Source: Gammaproteobacteria bacterium (GTDB taxonomy: Bacteria > Pseudomonadota > Gammaproteobacteria > Ga0077536). Taken from it: a DNA stretch of 64,000 bases. The stretch spans positions 372,001 through 436,000 of the forward strand of contig JAJFJQ010000051.1 of assembly GCA_021773835.1 (NCBI GenBank). Reading direction: 5' to 3'. Within the stretch, counting starts at the first letter, position 1; every line of letters begins with the position of its first letter. The translations under genes were made by a program, and so were the position numbers. The notes below the pieces were generated by a model. That model had not been told where the DNA came from. It did no database searches and saw nothing but the letters and a program-made list of their open reading frames with translations. Below are positions 17,353 to 62,939 of this stretch, in pieces.

Positions 17353-17787
17353 ATGACCGCACGAACGATTAGAGACACGCTCGAAGGACAACGGCTGGTA
17401 ACCGCGCAATCAACGATGACGGTAGCCGAAGTCGCGGCCATGATGAAAGCCGACTCGATGGGCGCGATCCTAGTGCTGGCCGACACCGAACTCGTCGGGA
17501 TCTTCACCGAACGTGATGCGCTATTTCGTGTCGCGGCTGAGGGCCTTGATCCAAACCAAACTAGTATCGCCGAGGTGATGACCCCGGATCCCATGACGAT
17601 CGGTCCCGATAAGCCATTCACCGATGCGCTGGAGTTGATGCATGGCGGCCAGTATCGCCATGTGCCCGTGGTCGAGAACGGTGGACCTATCGGTATGGTG
17701 TCGTCCAGAGATGCCATGGGCCCGGAACTCGAGCAATTTATGTACACGAAGATCCTTCAAGAACAGGCATTTGACGTGTTGGCATGA
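17353..17787 (+). CDS. CBS-domain protein
   Basis: A 144-residue protein made of two CBS motifs: QRLVTAQSTMTVAEVAAMM through LVGIFTERDALFRV (about 12-63), and VMTPDPMTIGPDKPFTDAL through HVPVVENGGPIGMVSSRDA (about 75-127). Paired CBS domains bind adenosyl nucleotides and regulate partner enzymes. The ATG at 17353 was chosen because GGGG precedes it and homology starts there; an upstream in-frame start at 17281 lacks support. It ends 12 bases before the UGSC selenoprotein gene, so co-transcription and a regulatory link are plausible inferences. Confidence 0.85.
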   Translation: MTARTIRDTLEGQRLVTAQSTMTVAEVAAMMKADSMGAILVLADTELVGIFTERDALFRVAAEGLDPNQTSIAEVMTPDPMTIGPDKPFTDALELMHGGQYRHVPVVENGGPIGMVSSRDAMGPELEQFMYTKILQEQAFDVLA

Positions 17788-17799
17788 GCGAGCAAAACG

Positions 17800-18450
17800 A
17801 TGGATGAAATAGAAGTCTTTGTACCGATTGCCGAATCTCGGATCGTGGAGCGTTCACTAGCGCCTCGGTTACCCGGACTTAAGGGCGCGCGGATCGGATG
17901 GCTCGATAACATGAAGGCGAATGCGCCAGAGCTACTGCGCGATCTCGCCGCGGCTTTACGCGACTGTGGTGCCGATGGCGAAATGATTTTCGCGTCAAAA
18001 AATGCGACCGCGGCCGCGCCGGAATCCGTAGTTGCCCACTTGCGCACCTGCGACGCGGTGGTACTCGCGATCTCGGACTGAGGATCCTGTACGTCGTGGA
18101 GTGTCCATGACTCGATTGAGCTTGAGGAAGCCGGGATCCCAACGGCGGTAGTTTGTAGCGACGAATTTGGCCCGTTAGCGCGCGCCGAATCTCAAGTATT
18201 GGGGCAGCGGGCGTTGCCACTCATCCCTATTCCGCATCCGCTCGCCGGTAACGACGGAGAATTGGTCGAAGCGAAAGCGTGCGCCATTGCGGACGAAGTA
18301 GCGACCGCGCTCACCGATCCGGTCGCGGCGCTCCATGCCCGCTATGAATCTCAATTTTTGGGTTTGACCGAGCGCCGGCTGGATGGCGGTGCGGTGTGCG
18401 TGGATGAGGTGTGTGCAATCGACCCTGCAGCGATGAGGATACCAGCCTGA
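17800..18450 (+). CDS. UGSC-motif selenoprotein (in-frame TGA = Sec94)
   Basis: Translated through the TGA at 18079-18081, this is one 216-residue protein with selenocysteine at residue 94 followed by Gly-Ser-Cys (U94-G-S-C97). Without Sec it breaks into a 93-residue ORF and a second in-frame piece. Three things support readthrough: the frame stays open for 122 codons after the TGA; the second copy at 56817 has the same GSCTS-x-x-V-x-D-x-I-x-L motif after its TGA; and selA, selB and tRNA-Sec are in the window. The region before Sec (CDAVVLAIS) is a beta-strand ending at the active site, recalling the Sec-bearing B subunits of glycine/proline reductases. A Sec-x-x-Cys redox role is inferred; the substrate is unknown. 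UGSC proteins are known from marine metagenomes. Confidence 0.85.
18095..18109 (+). promoter_or_regulatory. Candidate bacterial SECIS hairpin
   Basis: CGTGGA, loop GTG, TCCATG forms a 6-bp stem (one G-U pair) starting 13 bases after the Sec TGA, with a GU-containing apical loop 19 bases after it. Bacterial SECIS elements recognised by SelB lie inside the coding region just after the UGA, and the E. coli fdhF minimal hairpin starts 11 bases downstream. Position, size and loop fit. Function is inferred. Confidence 0.6.
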
Positions 18451-18469: not shown

Positions 18470-19528
18470 ATGAGCAGTACCGTTCGTCTTGATCCCGCGA
18501 CGTTGGACGACGAATTCGAAGCGCGTGGTTGGAGCGATGGCCTACCAGTTGTCGCACCTACCGTCGAGCGTGTGCGGGCGATGTTGGCCTTTACAGACCG
18601 TTCGGGCGATGACGAACTCGGTACGATGCCACCACGCCAAGGCATCGTGAGTGTCGAGATCCTTGCAGTCAATGCGGTGATGGCGGGTTGCCGACCGGAG
18701 TATTTCCCGGTGGTTGTTGCCGCAGTCGAGGCAATGCTCGATCCTGAGTTCAACTTGTTTGCGGTCCAAGCGACGACCCATCCATGCGCGCCGTGCATTA
18801 TCGTCAATGGCCCGCTTGCCCAAGAGATAAAACTTAACGCGCGCTATGGTGCGTTTGGCCCCGGCGTACGTGCAAACGCTACAATCGGCCGGGCGGTGCG
18901 TTTGATCTTAATGAATGTCGGCGGTGCAACACCTGGCATCCTCGACCGTTCGACCCAAGGGCAACCAGCGAAATACGCCTATTGCGTTGCGGAGAACGAA
19001 GCGGAAAGCCCGTGGGATCCACTTCACGTAGAGCGTGGGTTTGCCGCCACCGATTCCACGGTTACCGTCACGGCAGCGGACGGGCCGCACAATCTGAATG
19101 ATCACATCAGTCAACAACCAGACGGAATTCTTGCCACCATAACGTCGGCGCTAAGCGATATAGGCTGCAATAACGCCTATTTATACGGTCAGCCAACCAT
19201 CGCCCTCGGCCCGGAACACGCCGCCATTCTCGCTGCCGCTGGATTGAGCAAAGATGACATTCGAACACATGTTTTTGAGCACGCACGGATCCCACGCGAA
19301 CTGTGGATGCGCGGCGGTATGGCCGGTATGTTCGAAGATCGCTTTCCGAACGACGAGCGACTACCGATTTTAAAGTCGCCGGATGATTTACTAGTTATCG
19401 TCGTTGGTGGTTTCGGACGACACTCGTGCTGGCTGCCCACGTTTGGCGATACGACTCGAGCAGTGACGCGGGCAATTGCCAAGGCGGACGGCAGCCGAGT
19501 ACTATCCATCAGCGAATTTCGCAACTGA
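18470..19528 (+). CDS. UGSC-partner protein, family unrecognised
   Basis: I do not recognise this 352-residue family. It is clearly homologous over its length to the protein at 57341-58411, which also directly follows a UGSC selenoprotein. Shared blocks are DGLPVV-x-PT-x-ERV (about 23-35), AVMAGC-x-P-x2-FPVVVAA (about 69-84), IVNGP, GPG-x-RANA-x-IGRA-x-RL (about 125-139), NxGGAxPG and PAKxxxC-x-AExE (about 165-176). Two Cys, in VMAGC and in YCVAE/FCFAE, are conserved between the copies. There is no signal peptide or membrane helix, so it is probably cytosolic. Start ATG is 19 bases after the selenoprotein stop. It is likely a partner or substrate-binding subunit for the Sec redox protein; this is inference. 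Confidence 0.7.
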   Translation: MSSTVRLDPATLDDEFEARGWSDGLPVVAPTVERVRAMLAFTDRSGDDELGTMPPRQGIVSVEILAVNAVMAGCRPEYFPVVVAAVEAMLDPEFNLFAVQATTHPCAPCIIVNGPLAQEIKLNARYGAFGPGVRANATIGRAVRLILMNVGGATPGILDRSTQGQPAKYAYCVAENEAESPWDPLHVERGFAATDSTVTVTAADGPHNLNDHISQQPDGILATITSALSDIGCNNAYLYGQPTIALGPEHAAILAAAGLSKDDIRTHVFEHARIPRELWMRGGMAGMFEDRFPNDERLPILKSPDDLLVIVVGGFGRHSCWLPTFGDTTRAVTRAIAKADGSRVLSISEFRN

Positions 19529-19607: not shown

Positions 19608-20252
19608 ATGATCAAACTGCATGGCGTCGCGCTCAGCAACTATTACAATTCCGTGAAAGTGGCACTGCTTGAAAAAGATATTCCATTCGAGGAGGTTGCT
19701 CAATTTCCAAGCCAGGAACCGGAAGTTCTCTCCGTCAGCCCAATGGGGAAGGTGCCGTGGATAGAGATGGACGGAAAATGTTTGAGTGAAACTAACGTTA
19801 TCTTCGATTTTCTCGAAGAAATACATCCCGAGCCGTCGCTGTATCCGGCCGATGTCTTTGAACGAGCGAAGGCAAAAGAAATCGCTAGGATCGTTGAAAA
19901 TTATGTCGATTTACCTGCACGCCGCCATATTGGAACCGTGTATTTTGGCGGGCCGGTTGATGACGTCGCTTTCAAGGAGGCGCGCCCGGCCCTGGAGCAG
20001 GGCTTGAAGGCCCTTAGTGGTGTCGCAAAATTTGCGCCATACATCGCCGGTGACACCTTCACCTATGCCGATATCGATGCCTACTTCCAGATTGGATTCG
20101 CCAACTTACATTCGACGAAAATCTATGATTGGGACATCACTGAATCGATCCCAGGATTGGGAGATTACTTAGCAATGCTACGCGAGCGCCCATCGGTTGC
20201 GGCGGTTGATGGCGTTATGCAGGAAGCACTGGCGAACTTTCTGCCGAAGTAG
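19608..20252 (+). CDS. Glutathione S-transferase family protein
   Basis: A 214-residue GST. The thioredoxin-like N-domain has LSNYYNSVKVALLEKDIPFEE (about 8-28, Ser/Asn near the catalytic position), the cis-Pro segment SPMGKVPWIEMDG (about 44-56) and the glutathione-contacting SETNVIFDFLEE. The C-domain is helical (about 85-210) with YIAGDTFTYADID. It probably conjugates or reduces electrophiles using glutathione. It lies 79 bases after the UGSC-partner gene on the same strand and could share that transcript. Confidence 0.85.
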   Translation: MIKLHGVALSNYYNSVKVALLEKDIPFEEVAQFPSQEPEVLSVSPMGKVPWIEMDGKCLSETNVIFDFLEEIHPEPSLYPADVFERAKAKEIARIVENYVDLPARRHIGTVYFGGPVDDVAFKEARPALEQGLKALSGVAKFAPYIAGDTFTYADIDAYFQIGFANLHSTKIYDWDITESIPGLGDYLAMLRERPSVAAVDGVMQEALANFLPK

Positions 20253-20339: not shown

Positions 20340-20738
20340 ATGTCTGAAAATTTTGAACTCGATTGGCTGGATGAGTTTCGCGACAAGGCCAATTCGGATC
20401 GTGAACTCGCCGTCATCGGCGAATGGTTTAGTACCACCTTTAGCGTAAACTTCGGCCCACAGCGCATCGCGTTTAAGGTCGCTAACGGCCGAATCGAAGA
20501 AATCATTCGGGATCCTCGATTTGACGTCCGAGCGATCTTCGGTTTTAGCGCACCACTGACTGTATGGCGAAAATTCTTCGCCCCAACGCCGCCACCCCTG
20601 TATCACGATTTTTTCGCGATGATCATGCGCATTCCGGAATTCGTACTTGAGGGCGATGGACTCGTGGCCATGCAAAACGCACGAGCGCTCCACCGTACGA
20701 TGTCATTAATGCGAGATGCGGGAGCCGGTAATGTCTGA
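20340..20738 (+). CDS. Small SCP2-like protein (tentative)
   Basis: A 132-residue protein with no firm family. The pattern of a beta-rich middle (FSVNFGPQRIAFKVANGRIEE, then ADV-like FDVRAIFGFSAPLTVWRKFF) and a C-terminal LEGDGLVAMQNARAL helix resembles SCP2 sterol-carrier domains, which bind lipids or CoA esters. GGAG lies just upstream of the ATG. Its end overlaps the following hydrolase start by 8 bases, so the two are translationally linked. The fold assignment is weak. Confidence 0.6.
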   Translation: MSENFELDWLDEFRDKANSDRELAVIGEWFSTTFSVNFGPQRIAFKVANGRIEEIIRDPRFDVRAIFGFSAPLTVWRKFFAPTPPPLYHDFFAMIMRIPEFVLEGDGLVAMQNARALHRTMSLMRDAGAGNV

Positions 20739-21570
20739 TATTGAACCGATCATCGGGCGCTATGTAAACATCACTGTTGATGGCCGTGTATATCGTATTT
20801 TTTACGAGGAAGCGGGTGCCGGTATCCCTTTATTCTGCCTGCACACCGCCGGTGCCGACTCGCGACAGTTTCGACATATGCTGAACGACCCCGATCTGAC
20901 AGCAAGGTATCGCGTCGTCGCTTTCGACTTACCGTGGCATGGCCGCTCAACTCCACCGCAACAATGGTGGGAGGATAAATATCTGCTTACCGCGGATCAC
21001 TACATGGCGATCACCAAGGCCGTATGGGAATCGATTGGACTGCAACGTCCCATTGTTGCGGGGTGCTCAATGGGCGGTGCGATAGTGCTGCGGGCCGCCT
21101 TTGACCATCAAGACGAGATCCGCGGGATCCTGGGATTAGAGACAACGGCCGCCGGCCATGGCCGCTACAACGACTTCCTCCATCATCCCGCAGTCCATGG
21201 CGGCGAGCTTTGCGCTACCTATACCTACGGTCTCAATGCGCCATCTAGTCCGGAGGCGGGTAAACGTGAAAACTGGTGGTATTACGCACAGTCTGGGCCC
21301 GGCGTATACCGGGGCGATATCCATTTTTATTGTAACGACTGGGATGCTTGGGAAGAGCTTGGTCGAATTGACACGACGAAATGTAAAGTCGCGTTGCTAT
21401 CGGGCGAATATGATTATTCCGCCACGCCGCAGATGACCGAAGACGTGCACAAAGCGATCCCGGGGTCGTACTTTAAATTGATGCACGGCATGGGGCATTT
21501 CCCAATGATCGAAAATTATCCCGACTTTAGGCCGTATCTGATGGATGCCTTGGCCCACATTGGCGATTAA
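20731..21570 (+). CDS. Alpha/beta hydrolase
   Basis: A 279-residue alpha/beta hydrolase. It has LFCLHTAGADSRQF (oxyanion-hole region, about 29-42), VVAFDLPWHGRST, the nucleophile elbow VAGCSMGGAIVL (about 109-120), a late acid in SGEYDYSAT and the catalytic His in HGMGHFPMIENYP (about 257-269). Substrate is unknown. The ATG at 20731 is preceded by GGGAG and overlaps the SCP2-like gene. It forms a tight run with the downstream FMN reductase 12 bases on. Confidence 0.85.
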   Translation: MSDIEPIIGRYVNITVDGRVYRIFYEEAGAGIPLFCLHTAGADSRQFRHMLNDPDLTARYRVVAFDLPWHGRSTPPQQWWEDKYLLTADHYMAITKAVWESIGLQRPIVAGCSMGGAIVLRAAFDHQDEIRGILGLETTAAGHGRYNDFLHHPAVHGGELCATYTYGLNAPSSPEAGKRENWWYYAQSGPGVYRGDIHFYCNDWDAWEELGRIDTTKCKVALLSGEYDYSATPQMTEDVHKAIPGSYFKLMHGMGHFPMIENYPDFRPYLMDALAHIGD

Positions 21571-21582
21571 AGGAGCACAACG

Positions 21583-22332
21583 ATGGCTAAGCTAACACCG
21601 CAACAAGAGGAATTGTGTACCTCAAGTCAGTGGGATTTTTCAGATCTACGAGCGCTGTTTATCAATTGCACTTTAAAGCGTTCACCAGAGGTTTCACACA
21701 CGCAAGGTTTGATCGATGTGTCGAGCGCGATCATGGAAAAAAATGGCGTCACAGTAGAGACGCTGCGTGCCGTGGATTTCGATATTGCCTACGGTGTATG
21801 GCCAGACATGACAGAGCATGGTTGGGAGACGGACGAGTGGCCCGCGATTGTGACCAAGGTGATGGCCGCTGACATTCTCGTCATCACCTCACCGATTTGG
21901 TTGGGCGAGAAATCGTCGGTATGCACGAAGGTAATAGAGCGGCTCTATGCGGCGTCCGGCAATCTTAATAGTGCCGGTCAATACGCCTACTACGGCCGGG
22001 TCGGTGGTTGTTTAATTACCGGCAATGAAGATGGTGCTAAACACTGTTCGATGAATATCTTGTATTCGCTGCAGCATCTTGGTTACGTGATACCACCGCA
22101 AGCCGACGCCGGCTGGCTCGGCGAAGCAGGTCCAGGGCCATCGTATCTCGATGCGGGATCTGGCGGTCCGGAAAACGATTTTACCAACCGTAATACAACC
22201 TTCATGACGTGGAACCTGCTGCATCTCGCACGGATGTTAAAGGACGCCGGCGGGATGCCGGCCCATGGTAACCAACGTTCGGCCTGGGATGCCGGCTGTC
22301 GATTCGATTTCGATAATCCCGATTATCGCTGA
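21583..22332 (+). CDS. Flavodoxin-fold NAD(P)H-dependent FMN oxidoreductase
   Basis: A 249-residue flavodoxin-like protein. RALFINCTLKRSPEVSHT (about 23-40) is the FMN-phosphate loop, ADILVITSPIWLGEKSSV (about 92-109) the second flavin loop, and GGCLITGNEDGAKHC the third. Relatives reduce FMN, quinones or nitro compounds with NAD(P)H. AGGAG precedes the ATG by 7 bases. It is the last gene of the plus-strand run that starts with the CBS protein. Confidence 0.83.
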   Translation: MAKLTPQQEELCTSSQWDFSDLRALFINCTLKRSPEVSHTQGLIDVSSAIMEKNGVTVETLRAVDFDIAYGVWPDMTEHGWETDEWPAIVTKVMAADILVITSPIWLGEKSSVCTKVIERLYAASGNLNSAGQYAYYGRVGGCLITGNEDGAKHCSMNILYSLQHLGYVIPPQADAGWLGEAGPGPSYLDAGSGGPENDFTNRNTTFMTWNLLHLARMLKDAGGMPAHGNQRSAWDAGCRFDFDNPDYR

Positions 22333-56686: not shown

Positions 56687-56816
56687 TGATGGCACTCGTA
56701 CGTTACGGTTGAGACGAATTGTACCCCGACCGTGTCCCATAGACGATGCGACAGCACCCTATTCAGCGGGCGACGGATTTCTTATCCTACGTGTTGCATC
56801 TATGAGGCAAAGACTC

Positions 56817-57344
56817 ATGACGATTGAATTTCATGACCCACGTGCTAAACCACTGGTTCCTGCAGAGCCATACACCCCGCGAGCGGACCTATCGGCGCCA
56901 TTGGTAATTGGACTTTTGGCCAATGGATTCCCCGATTCTGAAGCCTTTCTTGAAGCGATGGAAAACGCGCTGGCAAAGCGGTTGCCGCAGGCGAGTTTTA
57001 AGCACTACAACAAGCACAATGCATCAATCCCGGTGAAACCCGATATGCTCGCCGACATTACGGCGGCATGCTCAATTGGCATAGCGGCCTACGGTCACTG
57101 AGGTAGCTGTACATCCGGCACCGTGCGTGACGGCATTGCACTTGCCCGTAACGGCCTACCGGCCGTTGCCTTTGTGACTTCAGAATTCTGGCCGCAAGGT
57201 GACTTTGTTGCCAAGGCAGAAGGGATGCCCCAGGTGCCGCGGGTAGAACTGCCGCATCCGGTAGCGGGGATCGGTCGCGAGGCGATGGGTCAGTTGGCAG
57301 ACAACATCTGTGCGCAGGTGCTGGAGCGCCTGAGCGAAGGATGA
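56817..57344 (+). CDS. UGSC-motif selenoprotein, second copy (in-frame TGA = Sec95)
   Basis: Read through the TGA at 57099-57101 this is a 175-residue protein with Sec95-Gly-Ser-Cys98. The post-Sec motif GSCTSGTVRDGIALARNGLP matches the first copy at 17800 (GSCTS-x-x-V-x-D-x-I-x-L-x3-G-x-P), and both share a SEF/DEF acidic segment about 25 residues later. Without Sec the gene would end after 94 residues and leave an orphan in-frame piece. Its stop TGA overlaps the next gene's ATG (ATGA), tying it to the partner protein. ATG at 56817 was chosen; the frame is open from 56709. Redox function through Sec-x-x-Cys is inferred; substrate unknown. Confidence 0.85.
57121..57133 (+). promoter_or_regulatory. 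Candidate SECIS hairpin, second selenoprotein
   Basis: CCGT, loop GCGTG, ACGG lies 19 bases after the Sec TGA, with GUG in the loop. The stem is short (4 bp, all Watson-Crick), and outer pairs need an internal loop. It sits in the region where a bacterial SECIS must lie but is a weaker match than the one in the first copy. Confidence 0.4.
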
Positions 57345-58411
57345 GCGCGCACCTCACGGCAGCCGGCGAAAGCGAGGCCTTGGAGATGTTGCACGCGGCG
57401 CGTTGCACCGATGGCCTTCCAGTGGTCATTCCGACCCCGGAGCGAGTTTCGCGCATGGTACTGGCGAGCGGACTCGATGGCGATATCGTGCTCGGCGAGA
57501 TGGGCCCGCAATGGGGTGCGGCAACGGTTGAAGCGGTTGCTGTTGCGGCGGTAATGGCCGGGTGCTTGCCGGATCATTTTCCGGTCGTCGTCGCCGCAAT
57601 CCGTGCCGTTTGCCAACCCGAGTTCGATCTCGCCGAGATGCAAGGAACAACCCATTGCATTGCGCCGTTGATGATCGTGAACGGACCAGCGCGTGCGGCG
57701 TGCGGTGGCATCGCGAGTGGCTTCGGTGCCATGGGGCCGGGGCATCGAGCAAATGCGTCGATCGGCCGGGCGCTGCGGCTGGCGATGATCAACATCGGTG
57801 GTGCTCGCCCAGGCGAATCTGATATGGCGCTCCACGGAAGCCCGGCAAAGTTTACGTTCTGTTTCGCCGAGGACGAGGAACATTCACCGTTTCCGCCGCT
57901 GCATACGAGCCTCGGCTACGACATCGATCAAAGTGTCGTGACCATCCTCGGCACCGAGGGACCGCACTCCGCATTGTTTACCGGTGACGCGGATGATCCC
58001 GAATCGGCCGAACGTTTGTTGAATACGGTCGCAAAAGTGATCGCCAATCCGGGGAGCAACAATTCGCACCTCGGTGGCACGGCTGCTATTTGTGTGGTGT
58101 TCAATCCCGATCACGCTGAAGTATTGGGCCGCGCCGGCTACACGCGCGACATGATCCAGCAAGTCTTGAGTGAACGTGCGGTGACCCCGCGTACGCAACT
58201 TGCGGCGCTGAATTCGCGGATGTTGGTTGGCGATGATGAGATGATCCCGGCCGTACGGGACCCCAGTAAGATTCTGCTGCTGACCGGGGGTGGTACCGGG
58301 CTATACACCATGGTCATGCCGTCTTGGTGTGCCGGGCCGCACGGTAATGTCGCCGTCCATGCAGAGATCGAGCTCGATCAGTATTGCGAAGTACCGACGC
58401 GGGCTGAATGA
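57341..58411 (+). CDS. UGSC-partner protein, second copy, family unrecognised
   Basis: A 356-residue protein homologous throughout to that at 18470-19528. Shared segments are DGLPVVIPTPERV (about 24-36), AVMAGCLPDHFPVVVAAI (about 69-86), MIVNGP, GPGHRANASIGRALRL (about 130-145), INIGGARPG and FCFAEDEEHSP. The ATG overlaps the selenoprotein stop by 4 bases, direct evidence that the two are made together. No signal peptide or membrane helix. I do not recognise the family. Conserved Cys in VMAGC and FCFAE could take part in redox exchange with the Sec protein (inference). Confidence 0.7.
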   Translation: MSAHLTAAGESEALEMLHAARCTDGLPVVIPTPERVSRMVLASGLDGDIVLGEMGPQWGAATVEAVAVAAVMAGCLPDHFPVVVAAIRAVCQPEFDLAEMQGTTHCIAPLMIVNGPARAACGGIASGFGAMGPGHRANASIGRALRLAMINIGGARPGESDMALHGSPAKFTFCFAEDEEHSPFPPLHTSLGYDIDQSVVTILGTEGPHSALFTGDADDPESAERLLNTVAKVIANPGSNNSHLGGTAAICVVFNPDHAEVLGRAGYTRDMIQQVLSERAVTPRTQLAALNSRMLVGDDEMIPAVRDPSKILLLTGGGTGLYTMVMPSWCAGPHGNVAVHAEIELDQYCEVPTRAE

Positions 58412-59047: not shown

Positions 59048-59341
59048 TCGCCATGTCGGCAAACGCCGGAATCTATTCGCCCTAACCGTGCAGAAGGGCG
59101 GCAACCGCGTCGAGACAAGACCATCTGAATGGATGCCGGATCAAGTCCGGCATGACGGGCGCGTCCCCACCTCCCTCGTCATTCCGGCGAAAGCCGGAAT
59201 CCATTCGGCCTAACCGTGCAGAAGGGCGGTAACCACATCGCGAAAAGACAGCCCGCATGGATGCCGGATCAAGTCTGGCATGACGGGTGTGCGCCCCCAC
59301 CTCCCGCGTCATTCCGGCGAAAGCCGGAATCCATTCGGCCT
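59048..59341. repeat. Tandem array of a ~130-bp unit with two palindromes
   Basis: Three successive starts of the same unit are at 59048, 59177 and 59307, giving periods of 129 and 130 bases; the third copy is cut short near 59341. Each unit opens with CGTCATTCCGGCGAAAGCC-GGAAT (8-bp stem, GAAA loop), continues AACCGTGCAGAAGGGCGG, and closes with ATGCCGGATCAAGTCCGGCAT (8-bp stem). The first copy is the most diverged. It lies just before selA, in the 402-base gap that follows the methyltransferase. It is non-coding and likely a REP/MITE-like element. Confidence 0.85.
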
Positions 59342-59423
59342 CAACGCGCAGCCACCGGTATCGTTGACCGGAGCGCGTTGGTTGTCTAGCCTGAGCGGTC
59401 CTTATGCTTTTGCCGCGACATCA

Positions 59424-60851
59424 ATGAGCGACTCTATCGCCGAACACTTGCAAGCGCTCCCCAGCATCGATCAACTCTTGCGAGCGGATGCGGTACAGCC
59501 GTTGTTGGCGCAATACGGACATAACTTGGTGACCGAGGCATTACGTACTGTAATCGCGAACCTGCGGGAGGCATTGGTGGCACGCGAGGAGTCGGCGCCT
59601 TCGCGTGCGTCGACGCCTGCGATCATTGATGTGGCTGACCAATTCCTACGCTCGCTTTCGGCACCCAGTTTGAAACCGGTATTCAACCTCACCGGTACGG
59701 TGTTACACACAAACCTTGGGCGCGCACCGTTACCGCAAGAGGCGATCGAGGCCATGACGGCAGTTGCCAGCGGTGCGAGCAACCTGGAGTTCGATCTGGA
59801 GAAAGGCCGGCGTGGCGATCGCGACACTCATCTTGAGGCGTGGGTCTGCCGTTTAACGGGCGCCGAGGCAGCAACCACGGTAAACAACAACGCGGCCGCG
59901 GTATTACTCGTGTTGAACACCTTGGCCCTGCGCAAAGAAGTCGTCGTGTCTCGCGGTGAACTGATTGAGATCGGTGGCTCATTTCGGATCCCGGACGTTA
60001 TGTCACGTGCCGGTGCAAAGCTGCGTGAAGTCGGCACGACAAACCGCACGCATCCCCACGACTACGAACAAAATATTACCGCGAAGACAGCGATGTTAAT
60101 GAAGGTACACACGAGCAACTACGTCGTCGAAGGTTTCACTAGCGCAGTGCCAGAGCGCGAACTCGCCGGTATCGCCCATAAATATGATCTTCCATTTGTA
60201 GTTGACCTTGGCAGCGGCAGCCTGGTTGACCTCACTCGCTACGGTTTGCCGCACGAACCAACTGTAGCGGAGACGCTGACGAGTGGCGCCGACATCGTGA
60301 CCTTTAGCGGTGACAAACTGCTCGGTGGTCCGCAGGCTGGGATCATCGCTGGTCGTGCCGATCTGGTCGACCGCATAAAACGCAATCCGATGAAACGCGC
60401 TCTCCGTGTCGACAAGATGACTATTGCCGCACTTGAAGCGGTGTTGCGTATCTATGGTGATCCCGATCGATTGTCCAAGCGCTCCACAAGCTTACGTCTA
60501 CTGACGCGCGATGAAGCGGACATCGGACTCCAAGCACATCGTCTGTTAGCCCAACTACAAGCAGTACTTGAGCGCGTGGCGACCGTTGAGGTTGTCGATT
60601 GCCGCAGCCAGATCGGCAGCGGTGCACAACCGGCCGAATTACTGCCTAGTGTCGGACTCGGGATCAAACCAGCGATTGCTCGTGGTAGTGGTAAGGCATT
60701 GGAGCGTCTTGCCAGTGCGTTCCGGCGACTACCAGTGCCGGTTATCGGCCGAATTGAAGATGGAATTTTGGTACTTGATCTGCGCTGCCTTGAAGACGAG
60801 TCGACATTTGTTGAACAGCTCAAAGATTTGCAGATTCTCGGTAAGAGCTAA
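59424..60851 (+). CDS. selA: L-seryl-tRNA(Sec) selenium transferase
   Basis: A 475-residue SelA. It has VFNLTGTVLHTNLGRAPL (about 90-107), ATTVNNNAAAVLLVLNTLA, RGELIEIGGSFRIPDVMSRA (about 178-197), and the PLP lysine Lys298 in FSGDKLLGGPQAGIIAG. It converts Ser-tRNA(Sec) to Sec-tRNA(Sec) using selenophosphate. ATG at 59424 fits the family N-terminus; no clear ribosome site precedes it, and the frame is open through the repeat array. Its TAA overlaps the selB ATG by one base. Selenophosphate synthetase (selD) is not in the window. Confidence 0.93.
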   Translation: MSDSIAEHLQALPSIDQLLRADAVQPLLAQYGHNLVTEALRTVIANLREALVAREESAPSRASTPAIIDVADQFLRSLSAPSLKPVFNLTGTVLHTNLGRAPLPQEAIEAMTAVASGASNLEFDLEKGRRGDRDTHLEAWVCRLTGAEAATTVNNNAAAVLLVLNTLALRKEVVVSRGELIEIGGSFRIPDVMSRAGAKLREVGTTNRTHPHDYEQNITAKTAMLMKVHTSNYVVEGFTSAVPERELAGIAHKYDLPFVVDLGSGSLVDLTRYGLPHEPTVAETLTSGADIVTFSGDKLLGGPQAGIIAGRADLVDRIKRNPMKRALRVDKMTIAALEAVLRIYGDPDRLSKRSTSLRLLTRDEADIGLQAHRLLAQLQAVLERVATVEVVDCRSQIGSGAQPAELLPSVGLGIKPAIARGSGKALERLASAFRRLPVPVIGRIEDGILVLDLRCLEDESTFVEQLKDLQILGKS

Positions 60852-62779
60852 TGATTGTTGCGACCGCCGGACATGTCGATCACGGCAAAACACTGCTCGT
60901 GAAAGCCTTAACAGGTGTCGATACGGATCGACTACCGGAAGAGAAAAAGCGCGGCCTCACGATTGACCTGGGTTTCGCCTACCACGATCTTGGCAACGGC
61001 GAACTCACCGGTTTTGTCGACGTGCCAGGGCACGAACGTTTTATCCGTACCATGCTGGCCGGGGTTAGCGGGATCGACTTCGTCGTGTTTGTCGTCGCAG
61101 CCGATGATGGCCCGATGCCACAAACAGCAGAGCACTTGGCAATTATGGATCTGCTTGGAGTGAGCCGTGGGGTCGTCGCGCTGACAAAGATCGACCGCGT
61201 TCCAGCAGCCAGAGTCAGCGAGGTTACCGCCGAGATTTCGACCCTCCTTGGGAACACTTGTTTGGCGAATGCGGCCGTCATACCGGTATCGGCCATGACG
61301 GGCGACGGTATCGAATCTTTGAGGCAATCCTTGTGCGCAGCCGCGCGCGACCTGCCGCCGCGAAGTACTTCAGGCAACTTTCGCCTCGCCGTCGATCGAA
61401 GTTTTCTATTAGCGGGGGCGGGGAGAGTTGTCACCGGCACGGTTTTTTCTGGCGCTGTTGATGTCGGCGAGACACTGATGTTGGCGCCCTTAGGCGCGAA
61501 CCTCCGTGTACGCGAGATCCACGCGCAGAATCGCGCGGCCGACAGAGCGATTGCAGGGCAACGTTGCGCATTGAACATCGTTGGTAGCGATTTAAGGCGC
61601 GCCGAGATCCACCGTGGCGATTGGGTATTGGCCGAGCCCGCGTGTTTCGGCGTTACGCGATTCGATGCGCGTATAAAAATACTGGCCGCCGAGGAACGCG
61701 CGTTTAAGAATCGCACCCCGGTACATGTGCACGTCGGTGCGGCGGATGTGACCGGTCGCGTCGTCACACTCGATGCGCCGGAAATCTCCCCTGGGGACAG
61801 TGGGTTGGTTCAAATCCAGCTCGATCGAGCCGTCGGTATGGTCCACGGCGATCGCATCATCCTGCGTGACCAATCCGCGTTGCGCACGATTGGCGGTGGC
61901 GTCGTACTAGATCCATTGCCGGTAACACGCGGCCGGTCCCGTGACCTACGAATGGCATATATCCGAGCGATGGAAGCGGACTCGCCGACCGCCTCGCTAA
62001 CCAAGGTATTGGAACGAATCGACACGGTGCCGCTTGATCGGTTTTCGCAAGCCTGGAATTTAACCGATACGGAGGCCGACGCGGTATGGCCTAAAGCACA
62101 AATGGTCGTCGTCGATGAGGGACGAACGAAGACCGGAATCACGACCGATAGGTGGGCCGCAATCCAATCAATAATCGAGCAGGGTCTAAGCCAATGGCAT
62201 AGCCGTTTTCCCGATCGCGTTGGCGTCAACGAAAACGAACTGCGCGTAAATTTGTCCGAGCGGATTAACGAGCACATTTTTTCGGGTGCTCTCGCCGCGT
62301 TGCTCAACACGAAGAAAACTGTGCGCGATGGCGGTGTCGTCCGATTGTCGACGCACGGTGCAGTTCGTTCTCCCGCAGAGCAAGCGTTATGGGAAAAGGT
62401 CGCAAGACTCCTGAGCGACGGCGGCATTCGGCCACCGGTGGTACACGACATGGTGGGGGAGCTTGGGATCACGTTTCCCGAACTAAGCAAGTTTTTGGCG
62501 AAATCAGCGCGTGAAGGGCAACTCATCAAAGTCAGCGATAAGCGCTATTTTATGCCCGCGGCGGTTCGCGAGTTGATCCAGATGGTCGAGGATACCGTGG
62601 CAGCAAGTGCGAACGGACAGTTCTCGGTTAAAGAATATCGGGACCGCGCCGGCATTGGACGCAACTCGGTGATCGAGATCCTCGAATACTTCGATCGGGT
62701 CGGTTACACCCGACGAATCGATCAAGCCCGCCAGATCCGACAACCAGCGGCCGATGCATTCGGCAATCTGATGGGCTGA
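60851..62779 (+). CDS. selB: Selenocysteine-specific elongation factor
   Basis: A 642-residue SelB. GTPase motifs are GHVDHGKTLLVKALTGVDTD (about 7-26), DVPGHERFIRTMLAG (about 57-71) and the TKID specificity box. The EF-Tu-like beta domains run about 175-375 (RSFLLAGAGRVVTGTVFSG), and the C-terminal winged helices (about 430-640), ending YFDRVGYTRRIDQARQI, read the SECIS hairpin. It delivers Sec-tRNA(Sec) to UGA codons on the ribosome. Start ATG overlaps the selA stop by one base (TAATG). It is followed by tRNA-Sec. Confidence 0.94.
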   Translation: MIVATAGHVDHGKTLLVKALTGVDTDRLPEEKKRGLTIDLGFAYHDLGNGELTGFVDVPGHERFIRTMLAGVSGIDFVVFVVAADDGPMPQTAEHLAIMDLLGVSRGVVALTKIDRVPAARVSEVTAEISTLLGNTCLANAAVIPVSAMTGDGIESLRQSLCAAARDLPPRSTSGNFRLAVDRSFLLAGAGRVVTGTVFSGAVDVGETLMLAPLGANLRVREIHAQNRAADRAIAGQRCALNIVGSDLRRAEIHRGDWVLAEPACFGVTRFDARIKILAAEERAFKNRTPVHVHVGAADVTGRVVTLDAPEISPGDSGLVQIQLDRAVGMVHGDRIILRDQSALRTIGGGVVLDPLPVTRGRSRDLRMAYIRAMEADSPTASLTKVLERIDTVPLDRFSQAWNLTDTEADAVWPKAQMVVVDEGRTKTGITTDRWAAIQSIIEQGLSQWHSRFPDRVGVNENELRVNLSERINEHIFSGALAALLNTKKTVRDGGVVRLSTHGAVRSPAEQALWEKVARLLSDGGIRPPVVHDMVGELGITFPELSKFLAKSAREGQLIKVSDKRYFMPAAVRELIQMVEDTVAASANGQFSVKEYRDRAGIGRNSVIEILEYFDRVGYTRRIDQARQIRQPAADAFGNLMG

Positions 62780-62843: not shown

Positions 62844-62939
62844 GGAAGAGCGACGTCTCCCGGTGGGGCGCCCGGACTTCAAATCCGGTGGAGTGCACGC
62901 ATGTGTGCTCGGTAGGTTCGACTCCTACCTCTTTCGCCA
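62844..62939 (+). tRNA. selC: tRNA-Sec (anticodon TCA)
   Basis: A 96-base tRNA. The anticodon stem CCGGA/TCCGG encloses loop CTTCAAA, anticodon TCA at 62879-62881. There is a long variable arm (GAGTGCAC GCAT GTGTGCTC), a T-arm GTAGG-TTCGACT-CCTAC, and the gene-encoded CCA end with G before it. The 5' strand GGAAGAG pairs with CTCTTTC (one G-U pair). The 8th position, C, opposes C, so the acceptor is 7 pairs where E. coli has 8. This tRNA is charged with Ser, converted by SelA and delivered by SelB. It follows selB directly. Confidence 0.93.

Follow-up and report, generated by a model that had tools for sequence, protein, structure and literature searches.

The window, a stretch of 64,000 nucleotides from a gammaproteobacterial genome (G000), contains two modules in which a gene for a UGSC selenoprotein is followed on the same strand by a gene for a partner protein, here called P. 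The UGSC genes were found by six-frame reading with TGA taken as selenocysteine (Sec), and the reading confirmed both pairs at the places given in the initial annotation, including the 4-base stop/start overlap in one of them (UGSC-2 and P-2; Table 1). The gap between UGSC-1 and P-1 is 19 bases. As had been proposed, the two partners belong to one family of approximately 355 residues: they align over 299 residues with 41% identity (E 3e-63), and the shared blocks AVMAGC-x-P-x2-FPVVVAA and GPG-x-RANA-x-IGRA both lie inside their alignment. Approximately 0.9 kb separates the end of module 2 from selA, with selB and tRNA-Sec next in order; selA serves the supply of Sec and is outside the enzyme itself. 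Palindrome-like repeats with GCCGGAATCCATTC-type units, REP-like by eye, lie between a methyltransferase gene and selA (59090-59300). Genes for a GST, an alpha/beta hydrolase and an FMN reductase lie 3' of module 1 (19608-20252, 20716-22332), and the GST has relatives in loci L177, L178 and L179, a possible hint at a pathway. The gene for a CBS-domain protein 5' of module 1 was considered as a third component and ruled out: a tblastn search of 101 loci found relatives only in two loci of the same genus, L177 and L179, and the gene is thus not in the core module.

Table 1. Features of the two UGSC-P modules and their surroundings in the window, and PrdB-like matches elsewhere in the source genome.
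Feature	Position	Strand	Details
CBS-domain protein, 5' of module 1	17353..17787	+	Pfam PF00571, two stretches
UGSC-1 selenoprotein	17800..18450	+	216 aa; PF24696 155.3 bits; NF041046 131.3 bits
Sec codon TGA of UGSC-1	18079..18081	+	in-frame; +3 Cys codon 18088-18090
Hairpin 3' of the UGSC-1 Sec TGA, candidate bacterial SECIS	18093..18111	+	fold prediction
Partner P-1	18470..19528	+	352 aa; Cys74 codon 18689-18691; AlphaFold2 pLDDT 94
UGSC-2 selenoprotein	56802..57344 (alternative start 56817)	+	PF24696 155.2 bits; NF041046 114.3 bits
Sec codon TGA of UGSC-2	57099..57101	+	in-frame; +3 Cys codon 57108-57110
Partner P-2	57341..58411	+	356 aa; ATGA, 4-base overlap with UGSC-2 stop
selA (Sec synthase)	59280..60851	+	PF03841 E 2.9e-160
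selB (Sec elongation factor)	60851..62779	+	SelB domains PF25461, PF09107, PF09106
tRNA-Sec	62844..62939	+	ARAGORN; Rfam RF01852 63.4 bits at 62844-62935
PrdB-like matches in G000	C47:287847-288506, C47:127696-128277, C7:52125-52547, C25:49598-50197, C25:24857-25312		profile search

Both UGSC proteins are members of PF24696 (cut-off 25 bits), a model that matched all 89 aligned UGSC members at E 0.1. The equivalog model NF041046 has a cut-off of 125 bits, with UGSC-1 above and UGSC-2 below it. For the P family, none of 121 members matched Pfam at E 0.01, and a single one matched NCBIfam (ectoine hydrolase model, E 0.0029), which was taken as spurious. Neither P-1 nor P-2 reached a cut-off in the two libraries, P-2 having one chance-level match in each (E 0.35 in Pfam and 0.032 in NCBIfam). 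Searches of the sequences of solved structures gave nothing convincing for P or UGSC. Among the plasmid listing and the regions examined, P is called a "hypothetical protein" wherever it is annotated. According to the accessible text of PMC9402790, UGSC accounts for 8.2% of selenoprotein genes, and PMC2398784 mentions, with reference to its Figure S1A, UGSC fused to a conserved domain "Unknown_1", which may be P. The available parts of PMC2398784, PMC13188914, PMC9312934, PMC5029168 and PMC9402790 name neither a function nor a partner for UGSC. A literature search with most subscription papers outside its scope yielded no partner gene family, relationship to GrdB or link to thioredoxin.

The association of the two families is close to obligatory. 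Within the family of the window's organism (36 genomes), P is present in 32 and UGSC in 31 genomes; UGSC lies on the same strand and no more than 184 bases away at 64 of 67 P places, and P adjoins 64 of 65 UGSC places. The three unpaired P places begin at contig ends, one being a 31-residue fragment, and the sole unpaired UGSC place lies 120 bases from a contig end. The source genome has three UGSC and three P, every one paired, with the third pair on another contig, outside the window, in the order P then UGSC. With every copy here paired and the same pairing seen again in other taxa, chance is not the explanation. In a phylum sample of 299 genomes, P and UGSC were both found in the same 4 genomes. 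Other taxa were scanned with a three-member P alignment, and the best 80 of 562 confirmed relatives were kept; the resulting pairing count is biased, because these are the most similar relatives. UGSC was found on the same strand in 76 of these 80 loci, within 500 bases in 72, and in the order UGSC-P in 62 and P-UGSC in 14. Three of the four exceptions end near the gene (L008, L010, L011) and one is real (L078).

Matches to P in the plasmid collection extend down to about 32% identity (24 records). A UGSC-family domain lies within 600 bases in 20 of the 21 records examined, the domains of L155 and L156 being very weak (30 and 28 bits), and is absent from L168. When all samples were pooled, leaving out P matches under 60 bits, 152 of 169 P had UGSC within 600 bases. 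Of the other 17, some lie at contig ends, some are second P copies and some have a neighbour at a distance of 961 to 4238 bases; L078 and L168 complete the set, with P alone in 13 kb and 17 kb, respectively. The initial annotation had called for a co-occurrence survey, and in the samples examined P is not widely found without UGSC. Two P genes accompany one UGSC gene in L154, L162, L164, L169, L028, L073 and L142, which could mean that P is heteromeric.

UGSC and P also occur as single chains. One 62%-complete genome (G022, loci L131-L140) has twelve open frames with an N-terminal UGSC containing an in-frame TGA and a C-terminal P, with no further stop between them, an unusual expansion of Sec fusion genes. 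Their motifs include UGSC, USSC, USTC, USIC, USLC, UGVC, UNGC and UHGC, and some start with a stretch that resembles a signal peptide by eye. Fusions of the Cys type were found in Neorhizobium (L170, L171) and Variovorax (L165); in another Neorhizobium locus (L159), two separate pieces make up P. Fusions in Vibrio and Sporomusa (L155:7344-9029, L156:7308-9032) have MGTS in place of UGSC and adjoin genes for aconitase X and DUF126. In the P part of these MGTS fusions, K168 is replaced by Glu in both and E177 by Leu in L155, sequence changes that hint at an altered, perhaps non-redox function. At L048:4032-7008, a separate UGSC-family gene with GGNP is followed by two P genes.

The first residue of the motif is strongly retained. 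Among 123 UGSC domain hits (duplicate loci included), the codon at the Sec site is TGA in 110, TGC or TGT in 8 and GGC in 1, with 4 unaligned. Among the 152 pairs, 117 have Sec (TGA) at this residue, 30 have Cys, 2 have Met and 1 has Gly, so that Sec or Cys is retained in 147; the Cys forms include those of haloarchaea. The three pairs with neither residue (two MGTS, one GGNP) show that in at least some branches the chemistry has been lost or altered. Two pairs were left unread, L065 because masked bases interrupt the gene and L051 because its codon is TAG. In the latter, from Blastococcus, TAG stands as the Sec codon of UGSC (L051:5672-5674), and the 13-kb locus yielded no tRNA. The available text of PMC5330540 cites an earlier report of UAG-Sec with UGSC proteins and adds a UAG-Sec gene from Blastococcus.

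For the single window genes, the predicted SECIS fold was not better than that of shuffled sequences (UGSC-1 z -0.02; the third sequence of this test started at the last base of its TGA). As a group, however, Sec genes folded better than Cys genes: the region 3' of this codon had a mean folding energy of -13.1 kcal/mol in 115 Sec genes versus -10.2 kcal/mol in 24 Cys genes (p 1.2e-4, a value that is optimistic because the sequences are related).

The distances within the two families match. The P and UGSC distance matrices correlated with r 0.857 over 140 pairs, a correlation of which shared genome descent explains a part, and the best of 500 permutations reached 0.108. A sibling-swap test was applied to loci with two modules; the true pairing fitted better in 6 of 6 comparisons with separate nearest UGSC, a result that leaves out the shared-UGSC loci L035, L154, L162, L164 and L169, versus 14 of 26 in its first form, in which loci with two P sharing the nearest UGSC were counted as failures. 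Both tests required at least 150 bits and 270 aa for P and at least 140 aa for UGSC, and the duplicates L001, L002, L004-L007 and L088 were left out of the alignments. Because the genes travel together, flip their order, fuse and diverge in step, we regard them as two components of one enzyme, and the initial idea of a two-component system is thereby strongly supported. UGSC and P very probably form one functional unit, and a complex of the two is well supported.

The two genes might instead be neighbours only through shared selenium islands or joint movement, with no common enzyme. Module 2 does lie near selA, selB and tRNA-Sec, SelA is also encoded near the modules of L180 and L184, and several UGSC-P loci are on plasmids. 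However, the pairing persists in Cys forms, in both gene orders and in single chains, which leaves this explanation hardly credible.

P has a conserved set of residues that may form an active or binding site, judging from the sequence alignment. D23 is invariant in 162 of 162 sequences, and G114, R141 and E175 in 164 of 164; this comparison left out P under 230 aa, and hence two of the G022 fusions. Of the cysteines, C74 is present in 118, C172 in 105 and C106 in 38 of 121 members. The conserved Cys that the initial annotation had wished to see near Sec is therefore real (C74 is also found in 150 of the 164 sequences), but 11 of the 12 Sec fusions in G022 have Ala in its place, so that it is not universally essential. 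C74 as an obligatory thiol partner of Sec was accordingly rejected as a universal rule. In 146 pairs with Sec or Cys and a readable C74, 126 keep both C74 and the Cys at +3 of the motif, Ala replaces C74 in 15, Ser replaces the +3 Cys in 5 and none has lost both; these counts are compatible with complementarity of the two thiols, but only about 0.5 double losses would be expected by chance. K168 and D159, like C74, vary in the fusions, and the variation at K168 and D159 suggests that paralogues may take different substrates.

Structure prediction had been proposed as a way of finding out whether P belongs to a known enzyme that has a complete active site of its own. The search with the AlphaFold2 model of P-1 returned only weak matches, mainly concerning residues 75-328, although P does have the conserved polar set described above. 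The best Foldseek match was the alpha subunit of a class I fumarase (7xky_A, E 1.3e-3, prob 0.77), which by VIA gave Z 4.7 over 174 residues at 5.0 A. Class I fumarate hydratase has three conserved cluster-binding Cys. Alternatively, catalysis could reside in P itself, which would be a hydro-lyase or hydrolase with a distant likeness to class I fumarase or to the Toblerone cyclic amide hydrolases, and UGSC would be a regulatory or repair subunit; the fold match, the genes next to the MGTS fusions, which are without Sec or Cys, and the occasional occurrence of P alone or duplicated would fit such a role. However, the TM-scores of the best fumarase rows (0.26-0.33) and the VIA Z values, every one under 6, are of a size that chance resemblance can produce, and the match is too weak to count as a fold relationship. 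P moreover differs from the fumarase in having no three well conserved Cys for a cluster, only C74 and C172, and UGSC has kept Sec or Cys in nearly all pairs. We therefore consider an enzyme of this type unlikely.

The model of a natural UGSC-P fusion (582 residues) had a pLDDT of 92 and a pTM of 0.90, values given without an error matrix, which suggest a defined arrangement of the two domains. The UGSC part is predicted to follow the order b-a-b-a-b-(Sec)-a-b-a-b, a Rossmann-like alternation of strands and helices, with Sec130 falling after strand 122-128 and ahead of helix 133-146. Among the VIA matches of the model, the highest was to a designed protein (8ju8, Z 11.3, 124 residues, 3.2 A). 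This predicted Rossmann-like order makes a thioredoxin fold for UGSC less likely, though still conceivable, and no thioredoxin was among the 50 VIA matches listed for the whole fusion.

Thioredoxin is linked to the modules by gene fusion and gene order. In all ten loci L108-L117 from the family of the window's organism, P carries an N-terminal domain with a DCPTC motif. In L109 this thioredoxin-like domain matches thioredoxin by phmmer against the PDB (E 2e-6) and PF00085 (24.3 bits, cut-off 23.5). Three of the ten were scanned against the cut-off: L109 was above it, L108 had only TraF and Thioredoxin_2 matches below cut-off, and L113 had no match; longer stretches of L109 and L113 scanned at E 1e-5 gave no thioredoxin match. 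An operon trxB-trxA-P-UGSC is present in Arthrobacter and the order P-UGSC-trxB in Roseovarius, and in Variovorax SRS16 trxB lies 1.9 kb 5' of P.

A TrxB-like gene within 5 kb was found for 11 of 23 Cys versus 2 of 73 Sec modules (Fisher p 9e-7; both Sec cases in L087), a contrast for which lineage, flank length and sampling are confounders and in which TrxB-like includes other FAD oxidoreductases. It rests on the plasmid loci (10/15 Cys, 0/3 Sec), since the genome-contig loci alone gave 1/8 versus 2/70; the plasmid loci have, with few exceptions, full 8-kb flanks, and many other loci have shorter ones. Loci L027, L048, L051, L065, L155 and L156, in which the Sec column is unread or is neither Sec nor Cys, were left out of the comparison. 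One of them, L051, with Sec by TAG, has a TrxB-like gene nearby. Other recurrent neighbours are, in raw counts, TctC (18 of 82 loci) and CoA-transferase III (13 of 82), and crotonase, MmgE/PrpD and others also recur; the whole window was counted as one locus, and one representative per neighbour family was scanned. The assignment of a pathway from these neighbours was rejected, as the recurrent genes have no single common pathway.

The reductase proposed in the initial annotation is supported indirectly by the thioredoxin-like fusion and the trxA and trxB neighbours, and we consider reductase chemistry of UGSC-P likely. The UxxC motif and the thioredoxin and TrxB-like neighbours would also suit a UGSC that is itself a thiol oxidoreductase of the thioredoxin type, and the accessible text of PMC2398784 terms UGSC Trx-like, guessing at a "Trx-like fold". 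The predicted fold of UGSC argues against this, as do the invariant D23, R141, E175 and G114 of P, conserved in the way expected of an active or binding site, and the frequent position of the loci among the catabolic genes counted above; such an activity is improbable. A non-redox lyase or isomerase of two components, in which Sec or Cys acts as nucleophile or acid/base without electron transfer, would account for the MGTS fusions and the GGNP pair, which keep both domains without Sec or Cys, and for the pairs in which the +3 Cys has been dispensed with. We give it little credence in view of the thioredoxin-like fusion and the association with TrxB-like genes.

The nearest chemical model for UGSC-P would be glycine reductase and D-proline reductase. 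Glycine reductase pairs GrdB with GrdE and D-proline reductase pairs PrdB with PrdA; a covalent selenium-carbon intermediate has been proposed for both, and cleavage of the partner turns one of its Cys into a pyruvoyl group. UGSC resembles GrdB and PrdB in being a Sec protein with UxxC that has a second component, and thioredoxin enters in the glycine case, in which it is the reductant according to the available text of PMC10298544. The UGSC-P system differs in that UGSC-1 is below the family cut-off and P matches neither PF09338 nor the PrdB-like proteins. Model TIGR01917 matched 25 of 89 UGSC weakly (E up to 0.01, best 2.4e-6), the match of UGSC-1 sitting at the Sec region, and for TIGR01918 (cut-off 65.45 bits) UGSC-1 scored 23.2 and UGSC-2 had no match. 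By hhalign, UGSC matched six PrdB-like selenoproteins with Prob 88 and E 2.9e-6, with the U and C of UxxC in register, over only 60 columns, which could stem from a common Rossmann unit.

For P, profile comparison gave no similarity to the PrdB-like proteins, and the GrdE-type model PF09338 matched 0 of 121 members; P as a homologue of GrdE/PrdA or of PrdB was therefore rejected. Nor can C74 universally be the Cys that forms a pyruvoyl group, given its replacement in the G022 fusions. The weak TIGR01917 matches and the PrdB-like profile match suggest that UGSC may be kin to the Sec module of these reductases. By sequence, it may work like that module or descend from it while failing the membership score, and a distant relationship to GrdB and PrdB is the best reading.

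PrdB-like selenoproteins are themselves matched in 27 of the 36 genomes of the window's family, none above cut-off. Six such matches were found in G000, one of which is UGSC-1; of the other five (Table 1), four have an in-frame TGA. Their Sec region, VDLAILAPVUPDCCRSVGLVARAIEKIGIPTV in the relative L145, can be likened to that of UGSC-1. The PrdB-like proteins, unlike UGSC, have about 290 aa and another N-terminal part, and none adjoins P in G000, as judged by eye from the coordinates.

Taken together, we propose that UGSC and P are the components of a thioredoxin-linked reductase, with the Sec or Cys nucleophile on UGSC and the substrate site provided by P, and we put the probability of this reading at roughly 0.6. 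The drive by a thiol or thioredoxin, with Sec as the nucleophile, is held with the same confidence. The three pairs lacking Sec and Cys, the solitary P genes and the missing resemblance of P to GrdE/PrdA weigh against it. UGSC would have a Rossmann-like fold, with Sec placed in the loop that leaves the third strand, where the following helix begins. From there, Sec or Cys would attack a substrate held mainly by P, through putative contacts with D23, R141 and E175, of which R141 could plausibly bind an anionic group. The resulting adduct would be resolved by a thiol, either the +3 Cys of UxxC or C74 of P, to yield a selenenylsulfide or disulfide that thioredoxin would then reduce. That a carbon-heteroatom bond is broken through a Se-C adduct is a more tentative part of the proposal, which we hold to be less likely than not.

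It is conceivable, although we lean against so broad a statement, that the modules represent a widespread class of two-component selenoenzymes, with P as a family without a described relative, for thioredoxin-driven reductive cleavage via a Se-C intermediate. Such a class would reach many lineages that are not anaerobic amino-acid fermenters, with Cys forms in haloarchaea among them, and would have up to a dozen paralogues per genome for different substrates. The UGSC family is common in oceans and soils, and the partner, the fusions and the thioredoxin link would make of this orphan family an enzyme that can be tested, for which the Cys forms would make the first tests feasible without selenium.
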